Assembly (NCBI RefSeq): GCF_000019805.1
Contig: NC_010525.1
Location: 868,001 to 932,000 of the forward strand
Reading direction: 5' to 3'
DNA: 64,000 bases
Source: Pyrobaculum neutrophilum V24Sta
GTDB taxonomy: Archaea; Thermoproteota; Thermoprotei; Thermoproteales; Thermoproteaceae
In this document: positions 2,401 to 14,115 of the stretch, one piece after another
Layout: every line of letters starts with the position of its first letter
Position numbering within the stretch: position 1 is the first letter of the stretch
Position numbers and translations under genes: made by a program
The notes under the pieces: model-generated
What the model saw: the letters and a program-made list of their open reading frames with translations, nothing else
What the model was told of the DNA's origin: nothing
Databases searched by the model: none

Positions 2401-3650
2401 GTGATTACACACGCCGCCGCCCACGTGGTGGAGCGGTTCGTGGGGAGGTTGAGCAGATCGCCAGCAGACCCCCGGAGACACGCCGCCGCGTTGAGGAGGT
2501 TCGAAGGCCGGTTTGGGCTATATATCCACATCCCCTTCTGCAGATCCCTCTGTAGGTTCTGTAGCTTCGTTAGATACCCATACGACCCCGCCCTCTACAG
2601 GAGGTACAAGGCGGCCTTGGAGAAGGAGCTGCAGTTCCTGGCGGAGGCGGCCGAGGGGGCCAAGGTCGACGTCTTATACGTGGGCGGGGGCACCCCCACC
2701 GTCGACGTCTACGCCCTGGCCGAGATCCTTGAAGTGGCGAAGAGCCACTTCGGCAGGTTGGACATAAGCGTTGAGGCCAACCCCGCCGACGTCACAGACG
2801 AGTCCATCTCCGTGCTCAAGGAGGCGGGCGTGGAGAGGCTGAGCATCGGCCTACAGAGCCTCTACGACGCCAAACTCGCCGAGCTCGGCCGCAGGTCCCA
2901 CACGGCGGCGCAGGGGGCACAAGCTGCGAGGCTCGCCGCGGGGAGGTTCCCCACCGTAAACATAGACATGATCTGGGGCACGCGGCTGGACACCCCCGCC
3001 ACCTTGAGGAGAGAGGCCGCGCTGGCTCTATCCCTCGGCGTCGGCCAAGTCACCTTCTACCCCCTCATGCCGGCCCCCGGCCTCAGAAAAACGCTGAGAC
3101 AGAGGAGGGAGGGGCCCTGGCACCCCCAGGAGGAGGCCCTCTACGGCGCCGTCCTAGAGACAGCCTCAGAGCGGGGCTACCCCCCCCCGCCACCCCCTGG
3201 TGCTTCAGCCGAACCGCCGGCTTGATAGACGAATACGTGGTCGACCACGACGTCTACCTAGCCGCCGGGGCAAGCGCAATAGGCAGAAGCAACTGGTACA
3301 TCTACGTCAACAGCTTCGACCCAGCTAAATACGTGGACTACGTCGAACGCCACGGCCACGGAGCCGCCAGAGCCATGTACATAGCCCCCTGGGAAGACGC
3401 CCTGTACTACGCCTCCACAGCGCTGTTCGGCCTCAGGTGGTGCCCCAGGGAGGTGGAGAGGCGCTACGGCCCACTCGGCCAACTCATAAACGCCTCGGTG
3501 GCCCCCTACGCGAGGCTACACGGCCAGAGGAGAGGCCCCTGCTACAGGATCACAAGCCCCAAAGCCCTGTACGAAATACACAAAATGCAGAGAGGAATAT
3601 ACATGGGCCTCAACGCCCTGAGGGAGTGGGGTATGAAAACCCGCGCCTAG
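2401..3650 (+). pseudogene. HemN/HemW-like radical SAM protein, frameshifted at a C8 run
   Basis: Two adjacent frames make one protein. The first (2401-3225, GTG start, 20 bases after modD) holds the radical SAM cluster motif in HIPFCRSLCRFC (Cys about 47, 51, 54), YVGGGTPT and the barrel segment SIGLQS. The second (from about 3190 to 3650) continues with WCFSRTAG and the HemN C-terminal pattern AAGASAIGRSNWYIYVN. The break is at eight Cs (3181-3188): one extra C would restore a single frame of about 416 codons. Family role: oxygen-independent coproporphyrinogen oxidase or the heme chaperone HemW. The break could be a real slippage mutation or a base-calling error. Confidence 0.75.
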
Positions 3651-4762: not shown

Positions 4763-5484
4763 CCCCCGAGCGGCCTCTACGCCAAAGGCTCTCGGCAGGT
4801 GATACAAAGCGTTTCTCTCCCAGTGACGCATCCCGCGCTGGGTAATCCCCATCCGAACGCCTAGAAGGCACCCGTGTGTCTACAATAGGCTCCCATACCC
4901 CCCTCATAAAATCTGCGAGACGGCTTTCGTTCGGCGGCCAGCTGTGGCCGCCTCCTCAGCTCCGTAAAGCCCTCCCCCGTCACATCAAATCTCAAACAAA
5001 ATAGCCGTGTACCCAGCAGGTAGTTCCAGGATTTGGGCACGGCCACCACCCCCACTGCTCAAGCGACACTATATAGCCGTCCCCAGCCAACACGCCGCCG
5101 AGGCGCCTTACAACCGCGTCTCTATACAAGTGGCGGTTAAGACAATATGAAACTCCCGCCCCGCTCTCAACGCCTGGCAAATGCCGTAGCCGCAGTCGTA
5201 GACTGTTAAACCTGGTTGGCGATGTGCTACCCCCGTCCAAATGTAGAGCCTTTCCCGGCTTCTCGTTGGTAGGGGCCCGTAGCCTTGCCAGCTATGAATC
5301 TGGCGCCGCGGCGCATGGAGGAGCGGGTGTAGATAGACGTTCGATATCTCCTCGGAACTAAAGGTTCTCCTAACGGCGTGTAGAGACGCGGTGCCTATTA
5401 CTAAGGCGCACTTCTGTAGAAACACGCCGGGGCAGATCTGGACTTAGTCAATGTAACTATAGGTATTTGTCTAGGGCTTCTGTT
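4763..5484. other. Region of about 720 bases without a clear gene; possible decayed ORF on minus strand
   Basis: No intact recognisable gene. On the minus strand three overlapping open stretches (5425-5108, 5240-4992, 5055-4861) read like fragments of one protein in changing frames, for example RERLYIWTGVAHRQPGL, then VVRRLGGVLAGDGYIVSL, then WNYLLGTRLFCLRFDV. I recognise no family. It may be a decayed gene or chance open frames. Confidence 0.3.
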
Positions 5485-5530
5485 CAACACCTGTGGTAGT
5501 TTTTCAACGCGTGTTGGGTAATATTTTTCA
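5485..5530 (+). promoter_or_regulatory. Promoter and operator-like box of the pilin-like gene at 5552
   Basis: The box CAACGCGTGTTGGG (5505-5518) is an imperfect inverted repeat directly followed by an A/T stretch with TAATATTTTT (about 5519-5528) that fits a TATA element 24-33 nt before the ATG. A second imperfect copy, CAACACCTGTGG, lies at 5485-5496. The same box-plus-TATA layout recurs before 6301 and before the regulator gene that starts at 9400. Confidence 0.65.
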
Positions 5531-5551
5531 CGGGTCGAGAAAAAGCGACAC

Positions 5552-6061
5552 ATGAAGTCGACAATAACAATAGCGGCGCTGGCGATAGTGCTGGCGGTCG
5601 CGTTCGCAATATGGCAGGAAACAGCCACGATATCAGTAAACGCACAGACAGGATACCTAGACGCCGATTTCCAGAACGTTCAAGTGGACAGATCCCCCTA
5701 CGTGACGGCAGAGGCAAAGACCGCCGGCTCTGACGCTGGCAACGACGGGCCGCCCTCCCTAACTGTGACAGTTACAAATGCATACCCCGGCGCGTCTGTC
5801 ACAGTGTCCTTTGATGTGTACAACGACGGCACCATCCCGCTGAGGTTCAGGTGGACAGCGTGTACAATAAGCGGCGACACCGGCTATCTAAAAGTCTCCG
5901 GCATGCCAACTTCAGACACGACATTAGACCTCGGCGCTACACAAAAGGTGACGCTAACAATTACAGCGGCCGATAACGTGGAGGAGCAAAAGACATACTC
6001 ACTTACGATCCAGTGTCCCTACCAGCAGGCGGTGCCCGTAGCAAGTGGACCATCCCAGTGA
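5552..6061 (+). CDS. TasA/AbpA-like pilin subunit (archaeal bundling-pilus type)
   Basis: 169 aa. It starts with a signal peptide (hydrophobic residues about 5-22) followed by the SipW-type junction region ISVNAQTGYLDADFQNVQV. The mature part has the TasA/camelysin pattern: GNDGPPSLTVTVTNAYPG, then FDVYNDGTIPLRF, then a beta-rich tail with QKVTLTITA. Two Cys (ACTISG and IQCPY) could form a disulfide. In bacteria TasA forms biofilm fibres; in Pyrobaculum calidifontis a homologue (AbpA) forms bundling pili by donor-strand exchange. Assignment here rests on motif and layout, not on a search. A paralogue follows at 6301 and a T7 run follows the stop codon, so this gene probably has its own transcript. 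Confidence 0.7.
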   Translation: MKSTITIAALAIVLAVAFAIWQETATISVNAQTGYLDADFQNVQVDRSPYVTAEAKTAGSDAGNDGPPSLTVTVTNAYPGASVTVSFDVYNDGTIPLRFRWTACTISGDTGYLKVSGMPTSDTTLDLGATQKVTLTITAADNVEEQKTYSLTIQCPYQQAVPVASGPSQ

Positions 6062-6068
6062 AACTACC

Positions 6069-6075
6069 TTTTTTT
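6069..6075 (+). terminator. T-run terminator after the first pilin-like gene
   Basis: Seven Ts begin 8 bases after the stop codon, as expected for factor-independent archaeal termination. The following 225 bases have no gene until the promoter of the next pilin-like gene. Confidence 0.5.
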
Positions 6076-6251
6076 CCTCCACCGTCTTGGGACTCACGTT
6101 CTTTCCCCTCTCTTCAACCAGATCAGGTGGTTCTTTTTCCCGCTGTGGCGTCGGGCCGGGGACGTGAGCTAGGCACAGGAGGCGGATCCCCGCCGTGGAG
6201 TCCCAACGTCCTACACCCAGGTACGGGTCCGAAAACAGGTTGTGGTTTTGG

Positions 6252-6277
6252 AAACGGCTGTTGGCTCATGTTTATAC
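6252..6277 (+). promoter_or_regulatory. Promoter and operator-like box of the second pilin-like gene
   Basis: AAACGGCTGTTGGC (6252-6265) matches the box seen before 5552, with TC then ATGTTTATACC giving a TATA-like element (about 6268-6277) 24-33 nt before the ATG at 6301. Confidence 0.6.
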
Positions 6278-6300
6278 CTTAGCCCATTACAAAATTTTCT

Positions 6301-6867
6301 ATGAAGACTTTGTTTGTATTGGCGCCACTAATGGCTCTATTGGTGGCGTACTCGCTCTGGGGCGAAGCCGCCGCTGTTAGAGCTCCGGTGTCGACGGGCT
6401 ACATAGATATGGACTTTGTCGATGTCAAGATAACCCACCCCGCCACTGTCCCAGTGGGGGCCGGCCCCACCGTGGTTGAGCTAAACTACATGAAGATTAC
6501 AGTCGACGTAGGGGGGTCCGCCCCGGGCAACGACGGCCCACCAGTCCTCTATATAGATGTGAAAAACATGTACCCAGGGGCTAAAGTCACCGTGAATGGA
6601 TACCTCAGAAACGACGGGACTATCCCAGTACGCGTTGAAAAATGCAACTTCAGATCGATAGGCGGCGCGTTCGCGTTCAAGGATGTAGACCTAGATTTCG
6701 ATATCCAAGTCGACGTTGATGCCTTTAAAGGAGGCAACGCACCTCCGTTTACGCTAATGCCGGGCCAGAGTGCCTATGTGGTGGTCTACATAAGGGCGCG
6801 GAACGATGCTAGAGAGAGCGTCTCCGTGTCTGCCCAATTCACCTGCGACTATAGGCAGGCACCCTAG
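6301..6867 (+). CDS. TasA/AbpA-like pilin paralogue
   Basis: 188 aa, paralogous to the protein at 5552: signal peptide (about residues 3-17), the junction VSTGYIDMDFVDVKI, GNDGPPVLYIDVKNMYPG, GYLRNDGTIPVRVEKC and a C-terminal CDYRQAP that parallels CPYQQAV. It is about 20 residues longer, with an insertion before the GNDGPP motif and a longer loop after the central strand pair. It could be the second fibre subunit or a cap/adhesin variant of the same pilus. The next gene starts only 2 bases after the stop, so it is likely co-transcribed with the anchor protein and the signal peptidase. Confidence 0.7.
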   Translation: MKTLFVLAPLMALLVAYSLWGEAAAVRAPVSTGYIDMDFVDVKITHPATVPVGAGPTVVELNYMKITVDVGGSAPGNDGPPVLYIDVKNMYPGAKVTVNGYLRNDGTIPVRVEKCNFRSIGGAFAFKDVDLDFDIQVDVDAFKGGNAPPFTLMPGQSAYVVVYIRARNDARESVSVSAQFTCDYRQAP

Positions 6868-6869
6868 CC

Positions 6870-7649
6870 GTGGTTAAGTTGGTTTTCCTGTTGGTCTTGG
6901 CCGTTTTTACCTGGGCTTGGAGTGTTACAGTTATTTCCTACAGGGATTTTGAGGTATACAACGGCTCTCTTCTTTTGGCGGATGGGAAGGCGTATACCGC
7001 GGCTACGCTGGTGGTCCCGGGCGGCTGGCCTCTGAGGGTTGTCTCCGGCAACTTCTCGCTTCCTCTAGACGTCGTCAGCGATGTGGTGGTGGTTTTGGGG
7101 TCGCCGTCGGGTGGGTGCGACGTCTACCACTTCTACAGCATTGCCCAAGACGCGACGGCCGTCTTGGCGGTATGTAGCGAGAGAGTTGAGGCCGTGGTGT
7201 CGGCGGATGGGGGGAGGAGAGCGGTGGTTTTCCAGACTGGGGTCAACTACATAGTTCTGCCAGGGCGTAGCTCCATCCGGGTGGAGTCTTCCACAGCCCC
7301 CGTGAGGATCAGGGAGAGGGAGATCTACACAGCGCATCTCCCCGCGGTGGCCGGCGGGTCTTCGCTCTCGGGAGGACCTCCGGCTGTCTACAACACGTCG
7401 CTTCTATACGGCAGGATCTACAACCTCGCCGGCGAGCTAGCTGCGTTGAGAGAGAGCTGCAGTAGAGATTTGACGGCGCTTAGGAAGCGGGTTGACGAAC
7501 TGAGCGGGGAGGTCAACGCGCTTAAGGCCGAGAGAGATAGGCTTCTCGTGGTGGGGCCCAACGCCGTTGCTCTATACGCCGCCGTGGGGGCCGGAGTGGC
7601 GGCGGGGACGGCGGGGGTGTACCTCGCGGCGAAGAGACGTGGACGGTAG
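6870..7649 (+). CDS. Exported, membrane-anchored coiled-coil protein of the pilus cluster
   Basis: 259 aa, GTG start 2 bases after the preceding stop. N-terminal signal peptide (LVFLLVLAVFTWAW), a beta-rich external region of about 160 residues with two Cys (GGCDVYHF, LAVCSERV), a charged coiled coil (residues about 190-232) and one C-terminal membrane helix (AVALYAAVGAGVAAGTAGVYLA) ending in KRRGR. This topology puts the protein outside the cell with a C-terminal anchor. No known family recognised. Its place between pilin-like genes and a signal peptidase suggests a basal anchor or assembly factor, which is inference. Confidence 0.65.
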   Translation: MVKLVFLLVLAVFTWAWSVTVISYRDFEVYNGSLLLADGKAYTAATLVVPGGWPLRVVSGNFSLPLDVVSDVVVVLGSPSGGCDVYHFYSIAQDATAVLAVCSERVEAVVSADGGRRAVVFQTGVNYIVLPGRSSIRVESSTAPVRIREREIYTAHLPAVAGGSSLSGGPPAVYNTSLLYGRIYNLAGELAALRESCSRDLTALRKRVDELSGEVNALKAERDRLLVVGPNAVALYAAVGAGVAAGTAGVYLAAKRRGR

Positions 7650-8745
7650 ACACCTCTGGCTCGCCGTCCCGCTCCTCTCCCTCGCGCCCGCGTTTGTCAA
7701 GGTGGAGCTCTGGACCCTCGCGCCCGTCTGGGGCCTCTTGGCGCTCTACTTCTCCAGATACGTCTGGGGCGGGGGGCTGGCTTCTGGGCTGGCGCCGGCG
7801 GCCGCCTATATGGCCGTGTGGGCCGGGCTAGGCCTGGTCTTCGGGTTTGAGGCCAACCGGTATGGAGGTAGCCCCACGGCGACTCTGCTAAACGGCGTCT
7901 ACTTCGGGCTGGCGGCATTGGCAAGGGAGTTCGCCAGGTACGCGGCTCTCTCTCTGAGAGCCGAGGAGCTATACCTGCTCGGGCCTCCGAAGAGGCTCCT
8001 TTGGTCCCGGGGAGATCTGTGGACTGGCTTGGTCTCCACCGCTTTAGCCGTAGACGCCAGCTGGCTGTCGCCGTCGCCCCAGTGGGTAGGGCTCTCCCTA
8101 GTCCCCAGCCTGTCCATCTCCCACGCCTGTTCCCTCCTCCAGAGGAGGTACGGGCCCTTCGCCTCGCTCCCACTGGCGACAGTCTGGGGGGCTCTGCCCT
8201 ACGTGTCGCCGGCTGTCCCCAAATCGCCTTGGGTCCTCTACGGCCTAGTCCACCTTCTCCTACTGCTTGGGGTGATGGCCGAGGATGCGCCTAGGAGGGA
8301 CCTCATCCCGGCGGTTGGGGCGGTGGCACTCGCGGCGTTTTTAGTAGGGGCCTTTGGGGTAAGGCCTTTTGTCGTGGCCACAGGTAGCATGTCCCCCCTG
8401 TATCAGCCCGGCGATGTGGTTTTCGTGGTGCCCATCCGACACGCGGAGGTGGGGGACGTGGTTCTCTACAGAGCAGACTTCGGCTACGTGCTTCACAGGG
8501 TAATAGACGTGAGGGAGGTGGGCGGGAGGACCTACTACATCACCAAGGGAGACGCCAACCCCACACCAGACGCGAGGCCTGTGCCGCAGGAGGCCGTTCT
8601 CGGTAAGGCGGTTTTCAAGGTGCCCTACGTGGGGACGCCGGCTCTGTGGGCCAGGGATCCATCCAGCTGGCCGCTTCTTGCCGTTCTGCTGGCGGCGGCC
8701 GCCGGCCTGGAACACCTCTTGAAGACCCTCCTCAAGAGGAGCTAG
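7639..8745 (+). CDS. Multi-TM protein with C-terminal S26 signal peptidase domain (SipW-like)
   Basis: 368 aa from the GTG at 7639, which overlaps the previous stop by 11 bases; earlier TTG starts lie well inside that gene. The first about 235 residues are hydrophobic with several predicted membrane helices and no known domain. The last about 130 residues are an S26 signal peptidase of the archaeal/ER type: catalytic Ser in ATGSMSPLYQPGDVV (about residue 250), His in GYVLHRVIDV (His replaces the bacterial Lys), Asp in TKGDANPTPDARPV, then GKAVFKVPYVG and a final membrane helix. In Bacillus, SipW processes TasA; this enzyme is therefore the likely processing peptidase for the adjacent pilin-like proteins. 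Confidence 0.8.
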   Translation: MDGRHLWLAVPLLSLAPAFVKVELWTLAPVWGLLALYFSRYVWGGGLASGLAPAAAYMAVWAGLGLVFGFEANRYGGSPTATLLNGVYFGLAALAREFARYAALSLRAEELYLLGPPKRLLWSRGDLWTGLVSTALAVDASWLSPSPQWVGLSLVPSLSISHACSLLQRRYGPFASLPLATVWGALPYVSPAVPKSPWVLYGLVHLLLLLGVMAEDAPRRDLIPAVGAVALAAFLVGAFGVRPFVVATGSMSPLYQPGDVVFVVPIRHAEVGDVVLYRADFGYVLHRVIDVREVGGRTYYITKGDANPTPDARPVPQEAVLGKAVFKVPYVGTPALWARDPSSWPLLAVLLAAAAGLEHLLKTLLKRS

Positions 8746-9125
8746 CGGCAGCTACCTATGCCTTTTGTAAAGGTCAACGTGCCGTTGTCTGTGAACACGT
8801 AGGTCTGCCACTTACCCTCGCCGGGGGACAGGCGGACCCTCGCCTTGCCCTCCACCGGCCCGTGAGGTTCAAGACAGAGCGGAACCGTGGCGCGGCTTTC
8901 GATATATACATCAACCTTTGCCTTCTTACAACCGTATATAGTTACTGTGACTTTGTCGCCAGCAACCTCCACCGTTCCTTTACATTTTTTATCTAACTCG
9001 GCTTGTGCGATGTAGAAGCTCCAGCTCCCCGTCTTCGCGGTTGCCCTAAGCTCTGCCTGTTGATAGTAGTGCGCAACCACCAGAGAAAAGGCGAGGATGT
9101 ACAAGAGGAGCAACAACAGCCGCAT
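8742..9125 (-). CDS. Small exported protein of the pilus cluster
   Basis: 127 aa. Signal peptide MRLLLLLLYILAFSLVVAHYY, then a beta-rich domain with ATAKTGSWSFYIAQAEL, which echoes the start of the mature pilin-like proteins. Cys at DKKCKGT, YGCKKAK, PLCLEP and GSCR suggest two disulfides. It lies tail to tail with the signal peptidase gene (4-base overlap) and its start overlaps the stop of the regulator gene upstream by one base (TGATG), so both are one transcript. Function unknown; a minor subunit is a reasonable guess. Confidence 0.6.
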   Translation of the reverse strand: MRLLLLLLYILAFSLVVAHYYQQAELRATAKTGSWSFYIAQAELDKKCKGTVEVAGDKVTVTIYGCKKAKVDVYIESRATVPLCLEPHGPVEGKARVRLSPGEGKWQTYVFTDNGTLTFTKGIGSCR

Positions 9126-9400
9126 CAGTTTATCTCCAGCTCCTTAAGCCAGCTGTGCTGGCTACTTAACACAACTATCGTCACCTGGGCGCCGGCTTTA
9201 TGGATCTCCACAATCCCCTTCTGTTTAAGCTCATCTAGGTACTTGTAGAGACTCTTCGGCGTCACCCCAACGCGTCTCGCAAGCTCCCGCAACGTGTAGC
9301 CGTACCCCCTGCGCAGCTCCATAATAATCCTCCACTTCACATCGTCGCCGTAAATCCGCGCCATGAAGTTTATAAGGGCGCTACATTGATCCCGCTCCAT
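9125..9400 (-). CDS. Winged-helix transcriptional regulator of the pilus cluster
   Basis: 91 aa. A helix-turn-helix is clear in YTLRELARRVGVTPKSLYKYLDELKQKGIVEIHKAG (about residues 35-70), followed by the wing strand AQVTIVVL. The N-terminal RIYGDDVKWRIIMELRRG matches ArsR/MarR-like archaeal wHTH proteins. It is translationally coupled to the small exported protein after it. Its own promoter carries a perfect inverted repeat that recurs before both pilin-like genes, so it probably controls itself and the cluster. Confidence 0.75.
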   Translation of the reverse strand: MERDQCSALINFMARIYGDDVKWRIIMELRRGYGYTLRELARRVGVTPKSLYKYLDELKQKGIVEIHKAGAQVTIVVLSSQHSWLKELEIN

Positions 9401-9416
9401 AGATACTTATGACAAC

Positions 9417-9447
9417 TGATTTAAAAATTTAGCCCAACACCTGTTGG
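9417..9447 (-). promoter_or_regulatory. Promoter and operator of the wHTH regulator gene
   Basis: CCAACACCTGTTGG (9434-9447) is a perfect 6-2-6 inverted repeat. On the minus strand it reads CCAACAGGTGTTGGG and runs into a TATA region (CTAAATTTTTAAAT, about 9419-9432) 18-30 nt before the ATG at 9400. Spacing and sequence match the boxes at 5505 and 6252. The rest of the gap to 9694 shows nothing I can support. Confidence 0.65.
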
Positions 9448-9694
9448 CAATCCAAAGGGAAAAATAGAACTATGTAATTGACCACATTGCGGTGTACCCC
9501 GGCACTTGCACTGAAATAGATATATGAAGGGCTATTCAAGCACCAAACCGCTTCGCACAACAGGAGAACCCCAGGCGCAGACGCCGCCAAGCAGGGTAGC
9601 TACACAGCCGCCGAAACTGCCAATACGGCGATACGCACCGGGCCTCTACCACGCGCCCCGCGGATATCCCGCGGCGGGGCTTCTCCAAGGTCCC

Positions 9695-10060
9695 TTATCT
9701 GCAGGCGCCTACGGCTTCGCAGAGGACCTCGGCATCTCCAGCCAGGAGTACGCCGCTGGCGATCTCCTCGGCGAGCCTGGTGCCCGCCATCTTTCTGAGC
9801 TCCTCCACCGTGTAGACCCGGGGCTCTAGGTCGATGGGGAACGACGGGTCGAGGAAGTCCGGTATCCTGTCCATAGGCCTCCTCCCGTCTTCTCTCACCA
9901 CTATCACCACGTCGGCGTCTGAAAACGCCGTGTAGTCCCCCCTCGCCAGAGAGCCGATAAGAACCACCGCCAGGGCCCCCCGCTCCACAGCCCACCTAGC
10001 GTACCGGGAAAGCTCCCTAAACACCCTCTCCACATCTAGTCTGAAGAGCCTCACCGACAT
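9695..10060 (-). CDS. MNT-type minimal nucleotidyltransferase (antitoxin)
   Basis: 121 aa. The nucleotidyltransferase motif is intact: VVLIGSLARGDYTAFSDADVVIV (GS-x-R-G ... D-x-D/V), with a possible third acidic residue in PIDLEPRVY. The family forms two-gene modules with HEPN proteins in which MNT neutralises the HEPN ribonuclease, in studied cases by AMPylating or oligoadenylating it. Its start lies 44 bases inside the upstream HEPN gene, supporting tight coupling. Confidence 0.85.
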   Translation of the reverse strand: MSVRLFRLDVERVFRELSRYARWAVERGALAVVLIGSLARGDYTAFSDADVVIVVREDGRRPMDRIPDFLDPSFPIDLEPRVYTVEELRKMAGTRLAEEIASGVLLAGDAEVLCEAVGACR

Positions 10061-10427
10061 ATCTCACAATCCTCTCAGCGGCGTTGACGGCGCCCTCAGC
10101 GTCCCCCCTGGTGAAGTAGTCCATCGGAGCTCCCTCGGGGTGCGCGTTGGGGTATCTAGACGGTATGTAGAACTTGTCAAGCCCCTTCGCCTCATCGACG
10201 AGGTCGCCGGGCGGCTTGACGTGCGCCGGGAGGCCGGCCAGAAGCCTAGAGACGGAGTGGCCCCACGCCTCCACCCCCAGACATTGGTAGAGGGCCTTAA
10301 CCGCCTTCTCCGCGGCTTGATGCGCGGCGAAACACGCCCACTCGTAGTCTCCAAACTCCAGAGACCTCCTGGCGTGCTCCAGGTCGCGGAGGGCCTGCCT
10401 AAACCAGTCACGCGCCCTAGACACCAC
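10017..10427 (-). CDS. HEPN domain protein (toxin partner of MNT)
   Basis: 136 aa, GTG start. The HEPN pattern is RARDWFRQALRDLEHARRSL, then YEWACFAAHQAAEKAVKAL, then a late helix AVNAAERIVRYV. The candidate RNase motif R-x4-H is seen as RYPNAH (about residues 92-97). A TATA-like GTTTTTAATAG lies about 20-28 nt upstream on the minus strand (10446-10456). Known role of such pairs: toxin-antitoxin or abortive defence. Confidence 0.85.
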   Translation of the reverse strand: MVSRARDWFRQALRDLEHARRSLEFGDYEWACFAAHQAAEKAVKALYQCLGVEAWGHSVSRLLAGLPAHVKPPGDLVDEAKGLDKFYIPSRYPNAHPEGAPMDYFTRGDAEGAVNAAERIVRYVGEALQTRCGEGV

Positions 10428-10456
10428 ACAGCTATGTGCACACCGCTATTAAAAAC

Positions 10457-10747
10457 CTCATCGCTGTGTACAAACATCGACGAGATGCCTCCGAGTCCTC
10501 AAACAGACGGAAAGCTACTGCAACTCCTCAACGCCCTCCACCCCAGCTCCCTTCACGCGGAGCGCTTTATCCTCCCACCTCGACCAAGCCCCATCCAGAA
10601 GAGCCACTTCCCCAGCTCCACAACTCCTTAGAATTTGTAGACGTCAACCTAAACCGATGGTCGCGGTGTCAGAGGCGGCGGCCTCCGGAGCCGTCGGCGG
10701 AATGGATCTCGCCCCTAAAGGCTTATAAGGGGGGCGGCGGATTGGAC
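10457..10747 (+). promoter_or_regulatory. Intergenic region with TATA box for the gene at 10748
   Basis: No gene seen. CTTATAAG at 10722-10729 lies about 19-26 nt before the GTG at 10748, which supports a leaderless transcript from that codon rather than from earlier starts in the same frame. Confidence 0.4.
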
Positions 10748-11059
10748 GTGGCTGAGAACTTGATCGCGGCTGTTCTAGGCAAGGCCGCCGAGGAGGCCCT
10801 AGAGACCGCTGTGCAGGCCTATCTGCAGAAGAAGATCTCGAGGAAGGACTTCCAGACGGCCCTCCTCCTTGTCATCGTCAAGATGATGGGCGATATGAAC
10901 AAAAAGCTGGACATCGCAAACAAAAGGCTGGATGATGTGAATAGAAAGTTGGATGACATCAAGATGGACGTCGCCGCTATAAAAGAGAACATGGCCCGGG
11001 CCAGAGAAGAGCTGCTGAGAGTCAGGGAGAACATAGCAAGTGTAGGCATCCGAATATAG
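10748..11059 (+). CDS. Small coiled-coil protein
   Basis: 103 aa from GTG 10748, chosen for its TATA spacing; a TTG at 10742 is also possible. The first third is helical (ENLIAAVLGKAAEEALETAVQA), and residues about 50-98 form heptad repeats: KKLDIANKRLDDVNRKLDDI, then KENMARAREELLRVREN. No catalytic motif. Such proteins are common in accessory DNA of Thermoproteales and are often followed by coiled-coil nuclease-like genes, as here. Function unknown. Confidence 0.55.
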   Translation: MAENLIAAVLGKAAEEALETAVQAYLQKKISRKDFQTALLLVIVKMMGDMNKKLDIANKRLDDVNRKLDDIKMDVAAIKENMARAREELLRVRENIASVGIRI

Positions 11060-11581
11060 GTCTCGCCGGATCGGCCGATTGTATGCGAAACACTCCACGG
11101 CAAACACCGCAGTCAACACAAAAGGCGGCTAGACATGGGCGAGGACGTTCATCCAGCAATCTCCCACCTCCCAGTCGCTGGGCAGTCGTTGATGTAGCCT
11201 TGCTTCTCTTTTTTGTTGTGTAGGAGGTAATGATCAGTTTAACGACCCTGCAGTCCGGAGGTAGGGACTGGCCTTGTATGACCCCCTCCCTGCCCTAAAG
11301 GGCGAGGCTTGTAGTTTGCGTTGTCAAATCAGAGAGGAGACACCGGCTCAGAAGTTGCTGAGAGGGCGACGTCGGTAGACCCACGTAGAGCCTGTCCCCC
11401 TTCTCTGAATGCCAAGACGCCCTAGACTGCCGCCCCGTCGCGGCGGTGGAGCGGAGGAGGCCCTGGAAACTCCCCTCGGAGCCAAAGAGCGGCTAGCCGG
11501 GCATGCCGGCGGTGGGATAAGCACACCCCCCGCCCGGCGCGGCCGGGAGGCGCCCCCTCAGCCTGACGCCGAAGGGCCGTT
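11060..11581. other. Noncoding region with a hairpin resembling an IS200/IS605 right end
   Basis: No gene is supported in these 522 bases. At 11284-11307 a C-rich arm, the perfect stem GCCC-TAAA-GGGC (11292-11303) and GAGG resemble the structured 3' ends (omega-RNA/right end) of TnpB-type IS605 elements. No tnpB or tnpA reading frame is near, so this would be a solo end or chance hairpin. Confidence 0.3.
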
Positions 11582-12307
11582 GTGGAGTTGGAGAGGCGTG
11601 GATTTGTTTTTGAATTTCGGCTCGCCCAGCTAGACGTGGGTCTCGACCTGAAAAGGGAGCTCCTGAGGCTATTGAGGGAAGACGAGGAGTTTAGATACGC
11701 GGTGGTGGGGTTGCTGGGCATCGCGGACCTGAGGACGTCCCTGGACAGCCTAATCAAGGCCGTGGGCGAGCTGAGAGACGTCGTGGCTAAACACAGCGAG
11801 GAGATCGACAAGCTGAGGAGCGCAGTCGAAGAGCTGAGGAAGGCCGTGGAGGCGTTGACTGAGGACGTCAAGAGGCACAGCGAGGCCATACACGCCATGC
11901 AGAACAGCATCGAGAGGCTGACGTCGTCAGTGACGGCGCTTGGCTACCGCCATGGGCTGTTCACCGAGGAGGCCTTTAGGGAGTCCATCAGGTACCTGCT
12001 TGGCGACCTGCTCAAGATCTACCAAATCAAACGCTGGACTTACTACGACAGCGAGGGCTTCGTGTTCGGCCGCCCCTCGGTCATCGACGTCGACGTTCTC
12101 ATCAGAGACGGCGAGCACATCCTCGTCGGGTACAAGGCCGGCATCGACCGCGGAGACGTGGCCGAGCTATACAGAGAGGGCCTCCTCTACGAGAGAGTTA
12201 ACAAGGTGAGGCCCAGGCTCCTCATCGTAGGCCCGGCGATTAGGAAGAGGGCCCTCGAGCTGGCCAGAGAGCTGGGCGTCGAGGTAAGAGCCCCCGAGGT
12301 GGTGTAG
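11582..12307 (+). CDS. Coiled-coil protein with PD-(D/E)XK-like C-terminal domain (DUF3782-like)
   Basis: 241 aa, GTG start. Residues about 35-120 form a long coiled coil (LRDVVAKHSEEIDKLRSAVEE, then KRHSEAIHAMQNSIERL). The C-terminal domain runs GLFTEEAFRESIRYLL, then SVIDVDVLIRDGEHILVGYKAGIDRGDV and RPRLLIVGP, the layout of archaeal restriction-fold proteins in which a D is followed by E-x-K. Here the E-x-K position reads GYK, so the usual acidic residue is missing and the protein may not cut DNA. Role unknown; often found in accessory and defence regions. Confidence 0.65.
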   Translation: MELERRGFVFEFRLAQLDVGLDLKRELLRLLREDEEFRYAVVGLLGIADLRTSLDSLIKAVGELRDVVAKHSEEIDKLRSAVEELRKAVEALTEDVKRHSEAIHAMQNSIERLTSSVTALGYRHGLFTEEAFRESIRYLLGDLLKIYQIKRWTYYDSEGFVFGRPSVIDVDVLIRDGEHILVGYKAGIDRGDVAELYREGLLYERVNKVRPRLLIVGPAIRKRALELARELGVEVRAPEVV

Positions 12308-12683
12308 CACCCACAAGGCGGCCCCCAGCCGCGGCCCGCCGACGCGTCGACGCGTAAAACCCACCGCATGCCCACCGGGCCAACGCGGCGGAGGAGCCGC
12401 CGCCAACTGGGCCCCCCACGGCCAGGGGCGGCGCCAGCCGCCACGTCGAGCCGGCGGCGGCGGAGGGTGGGGGGACCGCCCTCTGCACTGGCGGCCCGTC
12501 GCAAGGCCAGGCCGGCCAAGCTGACGCAGGAGAACCCAGCCCGCTGGGGCACACGCAGGCGACGGGGCCCGCGGCGGAGGCGTTGAGTCGCTCCGCGGCG
12601 GCTTTTGCTAAAAGCGGCTGGGGGCCCACCGCGGCGGCCTGGAGCGCCGGGGAACAGTTAAAAGGCGGTGGGCGAAGGGTGGC
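12308..12683. other. GC-rich intergenic region with promoter for the MFS gene
   Basis: No gene supported; open frames here are byproducts of the very high GC content. AGTTAAAAGG (12656-12665) fits a TATA box about 19-28 nt before the GTG at 12684. Confidence 0.4.
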
Positions 12684-13833
12684 GTGCGGCGGCACATGGC
12701 GGCTCTAGGCCTAGAGAGGTTCTTGAGGAGCTTGGCCACGGGCTATCTGGCGGTCGTCGTGCCCCTCCATCTGAAGAGCTTGACGGGGAGCGCCTTTGCG
12801 GCGGGGGCGGCCGTCGCGGTGGCAGGCTTCATCTCTCTGGGCTCCTCTGTGCTCTACGCCGCGTTGGGCGACGTGGTGGGCCACGCCAGGGGTCTCGCCA
12901 TAAGCGAGACCGCCTTCGCCGCCGCGCTCCTCGTGTTGGGCGCCGCGAAAAACCCCTGGGCTATCGCCGTAGCTCTGGGACTCGGCGGCTTGGGCATGTT
13001 GGGCCCCGGCGCCGCCAGGGGTAGCTTCGCGCCCCTCGTCATGGCGCTGGTGAGGAGGAACGCCCGCGGCGCCCTCGAGAGGACGAGGGATCTGGGCGCC
13101 ATAAACTTCCTCTCCACCTCAGGCGGGATCGCCGGCTCGCTCCTCGCGGGGTTGCTGAACCTGCGGGAGGCCGTGGCGTTTTTCGCCGGCTCAGTCTCGG
13201 CGGCCGCCCTCCTCGTGCTACTCCTGCTGGGGCGCGGCGAGGCCCTGCGGCGCGTAAACCCCCTCGCTGGAGTCGCCAGGAGGGCCGACACCGTCCGGGT
13301 CTACTCCCTCAGCCAGCTCCTGGCGGGAGTAGGTGTGGGCCTCTCCAACCCCCCTACTCTCCCCGTGGATAAACGTCTACCTGGGGGTGGGCAGGGCCGC
13401 CATCGGCGCCATCTTCGCCGCGGGCAACCTAGCCTTCTCCACCGCCTCGCTCCTCGCCCACGCCCTCGTCAGAAGGCTCGGGATGGTCAAGGCCTCGGCC
13501 GTGAGCAGATTCGCCTCAGGCGCCCTGCTGGCCGCCCTCCCCCTGGCCCCCAACGGAGCCACATTCATCGCCCTCTACATGCTCTACAACGCCATGGTCG
13601 GCATAGGCGGAACGGCGCGCTCCTCCTACATCTCGGGCGCAGCGGCGGAGGGGAGCGAGGCCACCACCCCCGCGGTGGCCAACATACCCATGAGGATAAC
13701 GGCGACGCCCTCAGCCGCCCTAGCCGGATACCTCATAGAAGCGGACCCCGCCCTCTTGATGCCAATCGCAGCCGCCTTCACAGCAACCGCAGGCTACCTA
13801 CTCCTCAAACTAAGAGAAGAAGACGGAGCCTAG
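12684..13833 (+). pseudogene. MFS-type transporter, frameshifted at a C6 run
   Basis: Two frames join into one membrane protein of about 383 aa. The first half (12684 to about 13350, GTG start; ATG 12696 also possible) has hydrophobic helices and the MFS loop ALGDVVGHARG. The second (about 13349-13833) resumes with NPLLSPWINVYLGVGRAAIGA and continues with further helices. The shift lies at six Cs (13349-13354): five Cs would restore the frame. Family role: proton-coupled export or uptake of small molecules; substrate unknown. Either a true slippage mutation or a sequencing error. Confidence 0.7.
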
Positions 13834-14115
13834 CGACGACACGCCGCAGCCCCCTCCGCACTGAGGGAGGCCTCCGCATAACACGCCGGCGCCTCCGCAC
13901 GGCGCCCCCCAGCAGCCAAGGCGAGACTTAACGCGAGATATGGCAATATTCTCAGGAGACAGCAACCGCCGCGTCTACGCACGGAACCGGCTCACTCCGG
14001 CGGTAGATGGCCGGGTCTACGAGAGGCCGCCTAAGACGAGGCCTAGCTCCCTACCAAGTTGGCCCAAGGACAACAGCGCTCCATCGTGCTCCAAAAGCCC
14101 AGGCCTATGGCTAGC
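13834..14115. other. Intergenic region without a supported gene
   Basis: Nothing supported in about 280 bases between the MFS gene and the nuclease-like pseudogene that reads in the opposite direction. Confidence 0.4.

Follow-up and report, generated by a model that had tools for sequence, protein, structure and literature searches.

Donor-strand biofilm fibres have been seen in a few archaeal structures so far. The TasA–TapA–SipW system of Bacillus subtilis features a fibre subunit with an aromatic residue at P2′, a dedicated ER-type signal peptidase, and an accessory protein with a similar N-terminal strand, all of which have counterparts in the locus described here (PMC9674648, PMC10151520, PMC10269814). 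The aromatic P2′ residue—F in TasA—is cut poorly by the usual bacterial enzyme and is handled by the ER-type SipW (PMC10269814). The sipW–calY–capP–tasA system of Bacillus cereus resembles the locus in having two paralogous pilins, SipW, and a chaperone-like protein (PMC10151520, PMC13082335). Among archaea, AbpA of Pyrobaculum calidifontis comes from the same genus and belongs to the same general fibre type (cited in PMC9674648).

The locus at 5485–9447 lies in a window of 64,000 nucleotides, the whole stretch of DNA analysed (positions 868001–932000 of the 1,769,823-bp single-contig genome of Pyrobaculum neutrophilum V24Sta). It is likely to be a pilus operon of the TasA/archaeal-bundling-pilus type, on the AbpX-like branch, working by the mechanism proposed below, and it very probably encodes fibres related to those of the bacterial biofilm matrix. 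Directly supported are the homology to donor-strand fibres, the co-occurrence of the genes, the conservation of the junction, the paralogy of a small protein, and the operator geometry. A literature search found no experimental filament for P. neutrophilum. Six ORFs fill 5552–9400, with gene starts set by inspection, and a check of ORFs and translations located all of them where the initial annotation had placed them. The plus strand carries the pilins pil1 and pil2, an exported coiled-coil protein, and a long-form SipW-like signal peptidase; the minus strand carries a winged-helix (wHTH) regulator and a small exported protein. The peptidase gene likely starts at GTG 7639, overlapping the stop of the coiled-coil gene, and the wHTH stop codon shares one base with the start of the small-protein gene; both are therefore tight gene pairs. 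Unlike TasA–TapA–SipW, the window has a pair of pilins, a SipW of the long, membrane-fused form, an anchored protein as a separate part, and a regulator of the winged-helix type. All six genes are clustered in 3 of the 45 genomes of the order—the window genome, P. oguniense, and one other—with no further occurrence of the set among the 45. The cluster is not a product of chance, given that two other Pyrobaculum genomes have orthologues of all six genes in one place and that the pilins resemble a fibre subunit of solved structure. It is one version of a gene set found across Thermoproteota, here with its own anchor, minor subunit, and gene switch.

The proteins pil1 (5552–6061, plus strand, 169 aa) and pil2 (6301–6867, plus strand, 188 aa) are AbpX/TasA-like pilins. 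They had been described as paralogous exported proteins with shared motifs, and so they are: identity is 37%, with TGYLDADF and NDGTIP in pil1 and TGYIDMDF and NDGTIP in pil2. In pil1, the signal peptide is directly followed by the donor strand W21–G34 and then by a β-sandwich with YPGA and NDGTIP; its orthologues are 61% identical. A first search of genome contigs with pil1 alone gave no match and a second returned P. oguniense only. A 13-sequence pilin profile, run on 398 Thermoproteota genomes, found pilins in 44 of them, mostly as tandem pairs, and 36 loci were fetched for neighbourhood analysis. Phylum-wide, the W is conserved in 74 of 75 pilins and N-G-T-P in 69–74 of 75. In the tree, the six Pyrobaculum pilins of the window type group together (99/99; deep forks are weak) and hence stem from a duplication separate from those of other lineages. 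The apparently separate origin of the paralogue pairs in different lineages would suit an arrangement in which pil1 and pil2 form alternative filaments, specific to a phase or condition, rather than co-assembling, with the small protein acting as chaperone only; so would the promoter-like sequence of pil2 and its own operator-like site AAACGGCTGTTG (6252–6263), 37 nt before its ATG. This is possible though somewhat doubtful, as at least 32 of the 36 loci retain a tandem pilin pair and, in B. cereus, TasA and CalY reportedly co-assemble with CapP (PMC13082335). As a side observation, a related Pyrobaculum cluster in another genome (locus L014 of genome G003, 6487–12785) carries four pilins, one with an extra C-terminal domain (411 aa), together with two wHTH genes, a long SipW, DUF5305, and the same operator geometry.

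AbpX of Pyrodictium abyssi (PDB 9sj2, 9rhp) is matched by pil1 alone at E = 2e-8 and by a nine-sequence pilin profile at E = 8e-19, and the similarity is significant over the mature domain. AbpX and the window pilins have in common the N-terminal donor strand (W..ET..TG) and the motifs YPGA and N.GTIP; they differ in that identity is about 30% and that the window pilins have two cysteines in common (C104 and C155 in pil1). In the 9rhp chain of AbpX, the N-terminal segment QWSETLSLSATISTG is re-attached at the C terminus behind a GGGG linker, which we infer to be the usual self-complementation of a donor-strand subunit and to mark the donor strand. The segment QWSETLSLSATISTG aligns with WQETATISVNAQTG of pil1 (W21–G34) and WGEAAAVRAPVSTG of pil2; by this alignment, the pilins carry an N-terminal donor strand right behind the signal peptide. 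The AF2 model of the pil1 monomer (pLDDT 82) features an all-β sandwich with a disordered N-terminal strand and low pLDDT at residues 21–28. Foldseek searches of the PDB with the models of pil1 and the small protein gave weak, generic β-sandwich matches only, and the structural comparison is therefore not counted as evidence. TasA is reached marginally by the nine-sequence profile (E = 0.61) and lost from larger profiles. AbpA, unlike AbpX, was retrieved from the PDB under that name by none of the pilin profiles, and a scan of other Pyrobaculum genomes with the pilin profile did not find it even at E = 10—an empty result that shows little. Given the strong AbpX match, the marginal one to TasA, and no retrieval of AbpA, the pilins are most accurately called "AbpX-like". 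Of the TasA/AbpA-like fold initially claimed, the family relation is upheld through the AbpX profile match, while the closest solved relative retrieved is AbpX, AbpA being missing from the matches of every profile, and TasA stays below threshold by sequence. That the paralogues build another donor-strand polymer, such as a cannula-like tube or a surface lattice, in place of bundling pili is unlikely: Pyrodictium cannulae reportedly also form by donor-strand complementation with calcium (PMC11952670), and the acidic GNDG and DxDFD stretches in pil1 and pil2 could bind metal, but CanA was returned by no profile search, and AbpX, a bundling fibre, is the only solved structure that the sequence searches matched.

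The signal peptidase (7639–8745, plus strand) consists of 368 aa, in which a polytopic N-terminal domain—about 220 residues with several membrane helices—is fused to an ER-type S26B catalytic domain (S250, H286, D305, D311). The catalytic Ser, His, and Asp are invariant across seven genomes. The protein scores 91.5 bits against TIGR02228 (archaeal/ER-type), above the cut-off, and 55.9 bits against the SipW equivalog NF046067, below the curated cut-off of 190 bits; it is the longer archaeal form, predicted from its sequence to work in a SipW-like manner. An ER-type (Ser–His) signal peptidase thus adjoins the pilin genes, as in TasA-type systems. The mature pilins would carry W at P2′ of the predicted cleavage site, in parallel to F at P2′ of TasA. 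The co-occurrence of pilin homologues with the peptidase, on which the initial annotation depended, is borne out at two levels. Among the 81 genomes of the class, 7 have long-form SipW, each of them together with pilins, and 8 have pilins (Fisher p = 2e-9). Most genomes of the host's family have one ordinary signal peptidase, with an extra one only where there are pilins. Across the phylum, a SipW gene is present in 32 of the 36 fetched loci—in 26 of the 32 at most 250 nt from a pilin—and the remaining four end at a contig edge; SipW is near the pilins in 32 of 32 loci with enough flanking sequence, usually as the long form with a membrane-spanning N-terminal domain. Of the 32 peptidase ORFs, 3 (L138, L139, and L140) have a C-terminal match only or miss the start of the model, and two of these three lie close to the end of a contig.

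The coiled-coil protein (6870–7649, plus strand, 259 aa) is exported, features a C-terminal transmembrane helix and a basic tail, and is proposed as membrane anchor. Its orthologues, 52–53% identical, are restricted to the two genomes that share the whole cluster. No similarity of this protein to the pilins was detected; a pilin-like strand was looked for and is not supported, and neither is a reading as divergent DUF5305 (hhalign probability 7–11%, E 0.003–0.005). Of the 36 fetched loci, 14 have a recognised DUF5305 and 12 a minor TasA-like protein; where no DUF5305 was recognised, there is often a different protein that has a single helix at either terminus, in some cases with B-repeat domains. 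Two genomes (G051 and G052) encode two pilins and SipW on one strand and the minor protein and DUF5305 on the other, an anatomy as in the window. The coiled-coil protein is a candidate replacement for DUF5305 as anchor. The expected co-occurrence of an anchor holds for the role, which recurs, and fails for the proteins, which are non-homologous (DUF5305, B-repeat proteins, and the coiled-coil protein).

The small exported protein (8742–9125, minus strand, 127 aa) bears the junction similar to that of the pilins for which it was first singled out, with a related KTGSW/ATVPL. In a profile comparison of mature parts (hhalign; signal peptide excluded, shuffled controls), it scored 28.2 against the pilins versus at most 18.4 in 100 shuffles, and the coiled-coil protein as negative control scored 12.6. 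The AF2 model is all-β at a pLDDT of 79. In a TasA-type system, it would correspond to the TapA-like accessory protein, as its strand segment and mature domain, compared with those of the pilins, resemble them. Judged by these similarities, the small protein is a distant pilin paralogue, a reduced pilin, and a candidate minor subunit (initiator or cap). No homology of CapP to the small protein or to the proposed anchor is known. The small protein occurs in the same three genomes as the coiled-coil protein, with one further weak match.

The wHTH regulator (9125–9400, minus strand, 91 aa) matches Pfam HTH_24 at E = 1e-7, and three other Pyrobaculum genomes have its orthologue within the same cluster, which makes four with the window genome. 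The palindrome CAACANNTGTTG precedes pil1 (twice), pil2, and the wHTH gene; the outer coordinates of the initial annotation, 5485 and 9447, coincide with copies of it. The pair upstream of the A+T-rich pil1 promoter, CAACACCTGTGG (5485–5496) and CAACGCGTGTTG (5505–5516), is spaced by 20 bp, with 9 of 10 matches each; the second site stops 35 nt short of the pil1 ATG, and the paired layout is also found in P. oguniense. The AAACGGCTGTTG site of pil2 is the top-scoring 18-mer of the 64-kb window with a matrix built only from two other genomes. The palindromic site CAACAGGTGTTG (9435–9446, minus-strand reading) lies 34 nt before the wHTH ATG, and nowhere else in the 1.77-Mb genome than at this promoter is there a perfect match to the 14-base form CCAACANNTGTTGG. 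In four Pyrobaculum genomes, CAACANNTGTTG stands 34–37 nt upstream of most cluster genes, often paired 20 bp apart: a copy ends 34–37 nt before the start codon in 13 of 16 units, a count that takes in the second pil1 site and two weaker matches of 7/10. As background, 7 of 199 ORF starts, cluster genes included, have an 8/10 site at this spacing. For eight promoters from P. oguniense and G009, which had no part in defining CAACANNTGTTG, the combined Fisher p is 9e-8. Outside Pyrobaculum, the promoters tested lack the operator; a motif match at 2002–2019 in the window lies inside ORF 1562–2380 and was dismissed.

In these short-leader promoters, the palindrome immediately precedes the A+T-rich TATA region, and the stretch just upstream of the TATA region is where archaeal activators usually bind. 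This layout suggests a dedicated activator. A winged-helix protein of about 200 aa adjoins the pilins in L118, L119, L122, L123, L125, and L126 (HTH_45 for the L123 copy); in many loci across the phylum, it is apparently a different regulator in the same place. The small-protein gene and the wHTH gene lie on the opposite strand and converge on the SipW gene, as they might if they were unrelated neighbours of the pilin–SipW pair, but this is very improbable: the small and coiled-coil proteins are found in the same three genomes, the small protein is pilin-like and its gene keeps its own operator where it stands apart from the wHTH gene, and wHTH orthologues accompany pilins in four Pyrobaculum genomes. 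The suggested search with TasA/camelysin profiles turned out negative, the pilins staying below the cut-off of Pfam PF12389 (14.4 versus 22.5 bits), which has no match in the host's own genome. A role of the pilins as camelysin-type metallopeptidases or secreted enzymes of another kind, instead of structural proteins, is hardly credible, as the weak Peptidase_M73 similarity (E = 0.035; E ≤ 1 for 7 of 13 family members) is sub-threshold, HExxH is absent, and the best match is a fibre subunit; camelysin peptidase activity was rejected on the ground that pil1 has no histidine at all.

For a bundling pilus of the AbpX-like branch, we infer polymerisation as well as the anchor, cap, and activator roles. 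The pilins pil1 and pil2 would be exported by Sec and held by their signal peptides until the long-form SipW-like peptidase cuts just before the aromatic residue (W at P2′), which would free the N-terminal strand (W21–G34 in pil1). Once freed, the strand would fill the groove left open in the following subunit, so that one or both pilins would polymerise by donor-strand exchange. With its pilin strand segment and related β domain, the small protein is the probable initiator or cap, a role like that of TapA towards TasA; the coiled-coil protein, anchored through its C-terminal helix, probably tethers the base of the fibre to the membrane. All units are probably switched on by the wHTH protein, bound at CAACANNTGTTG immediately upstream of the TATA region. 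More speculatively, the polytopic domain fused to the signal peptidase may serve as assembly platform, coupling donor-strand release and polymerisation in one protein, and the base anchor may have been swapped several times among unrelated proteins (DUF5305, B-repeat, coiled-coil) in Thermoproteota. Long-form SipW, a minor pilin-like subunit, and exchangeable anchors are candidate parts for the processing, start, anchoring, and switching of archaeal fibres, to which Pyrobaculum adds a candidate switch, namely a regulator whose binding site is predicted. The link between the biofilm fibres of bacteria and archaea extends to the whole gene set, beyond the subunit alone.

Some neighbouring genes also deserve mention. 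Beside the cluster, an NTP_transf_2 nucleotidyltransferase gene and a HEPN gene form an overlapping tandem (9695–10427, minus strand) with the layout of an MNT–HEPN toxin–antitoxin. Upstream of pil1 (4861–5425, minus strand), ORFs 5108–5425 and 4992–5240 overlap in different frames and are followed by 4861–5055, resembling one frame-broken gene. A radical-SAM (HemN-like) protein (2401–3650, plus strand) appears split into the overlapping frames 2401–3225 and 3222–3650, which suggests a frameshift or a sequencing error. The ORF of an MFS-like transporter (12684–13931, plus strand) has a second half that reads as non-membrane sequence rich in proline and arginine, suggesting a frameshift near 13300.
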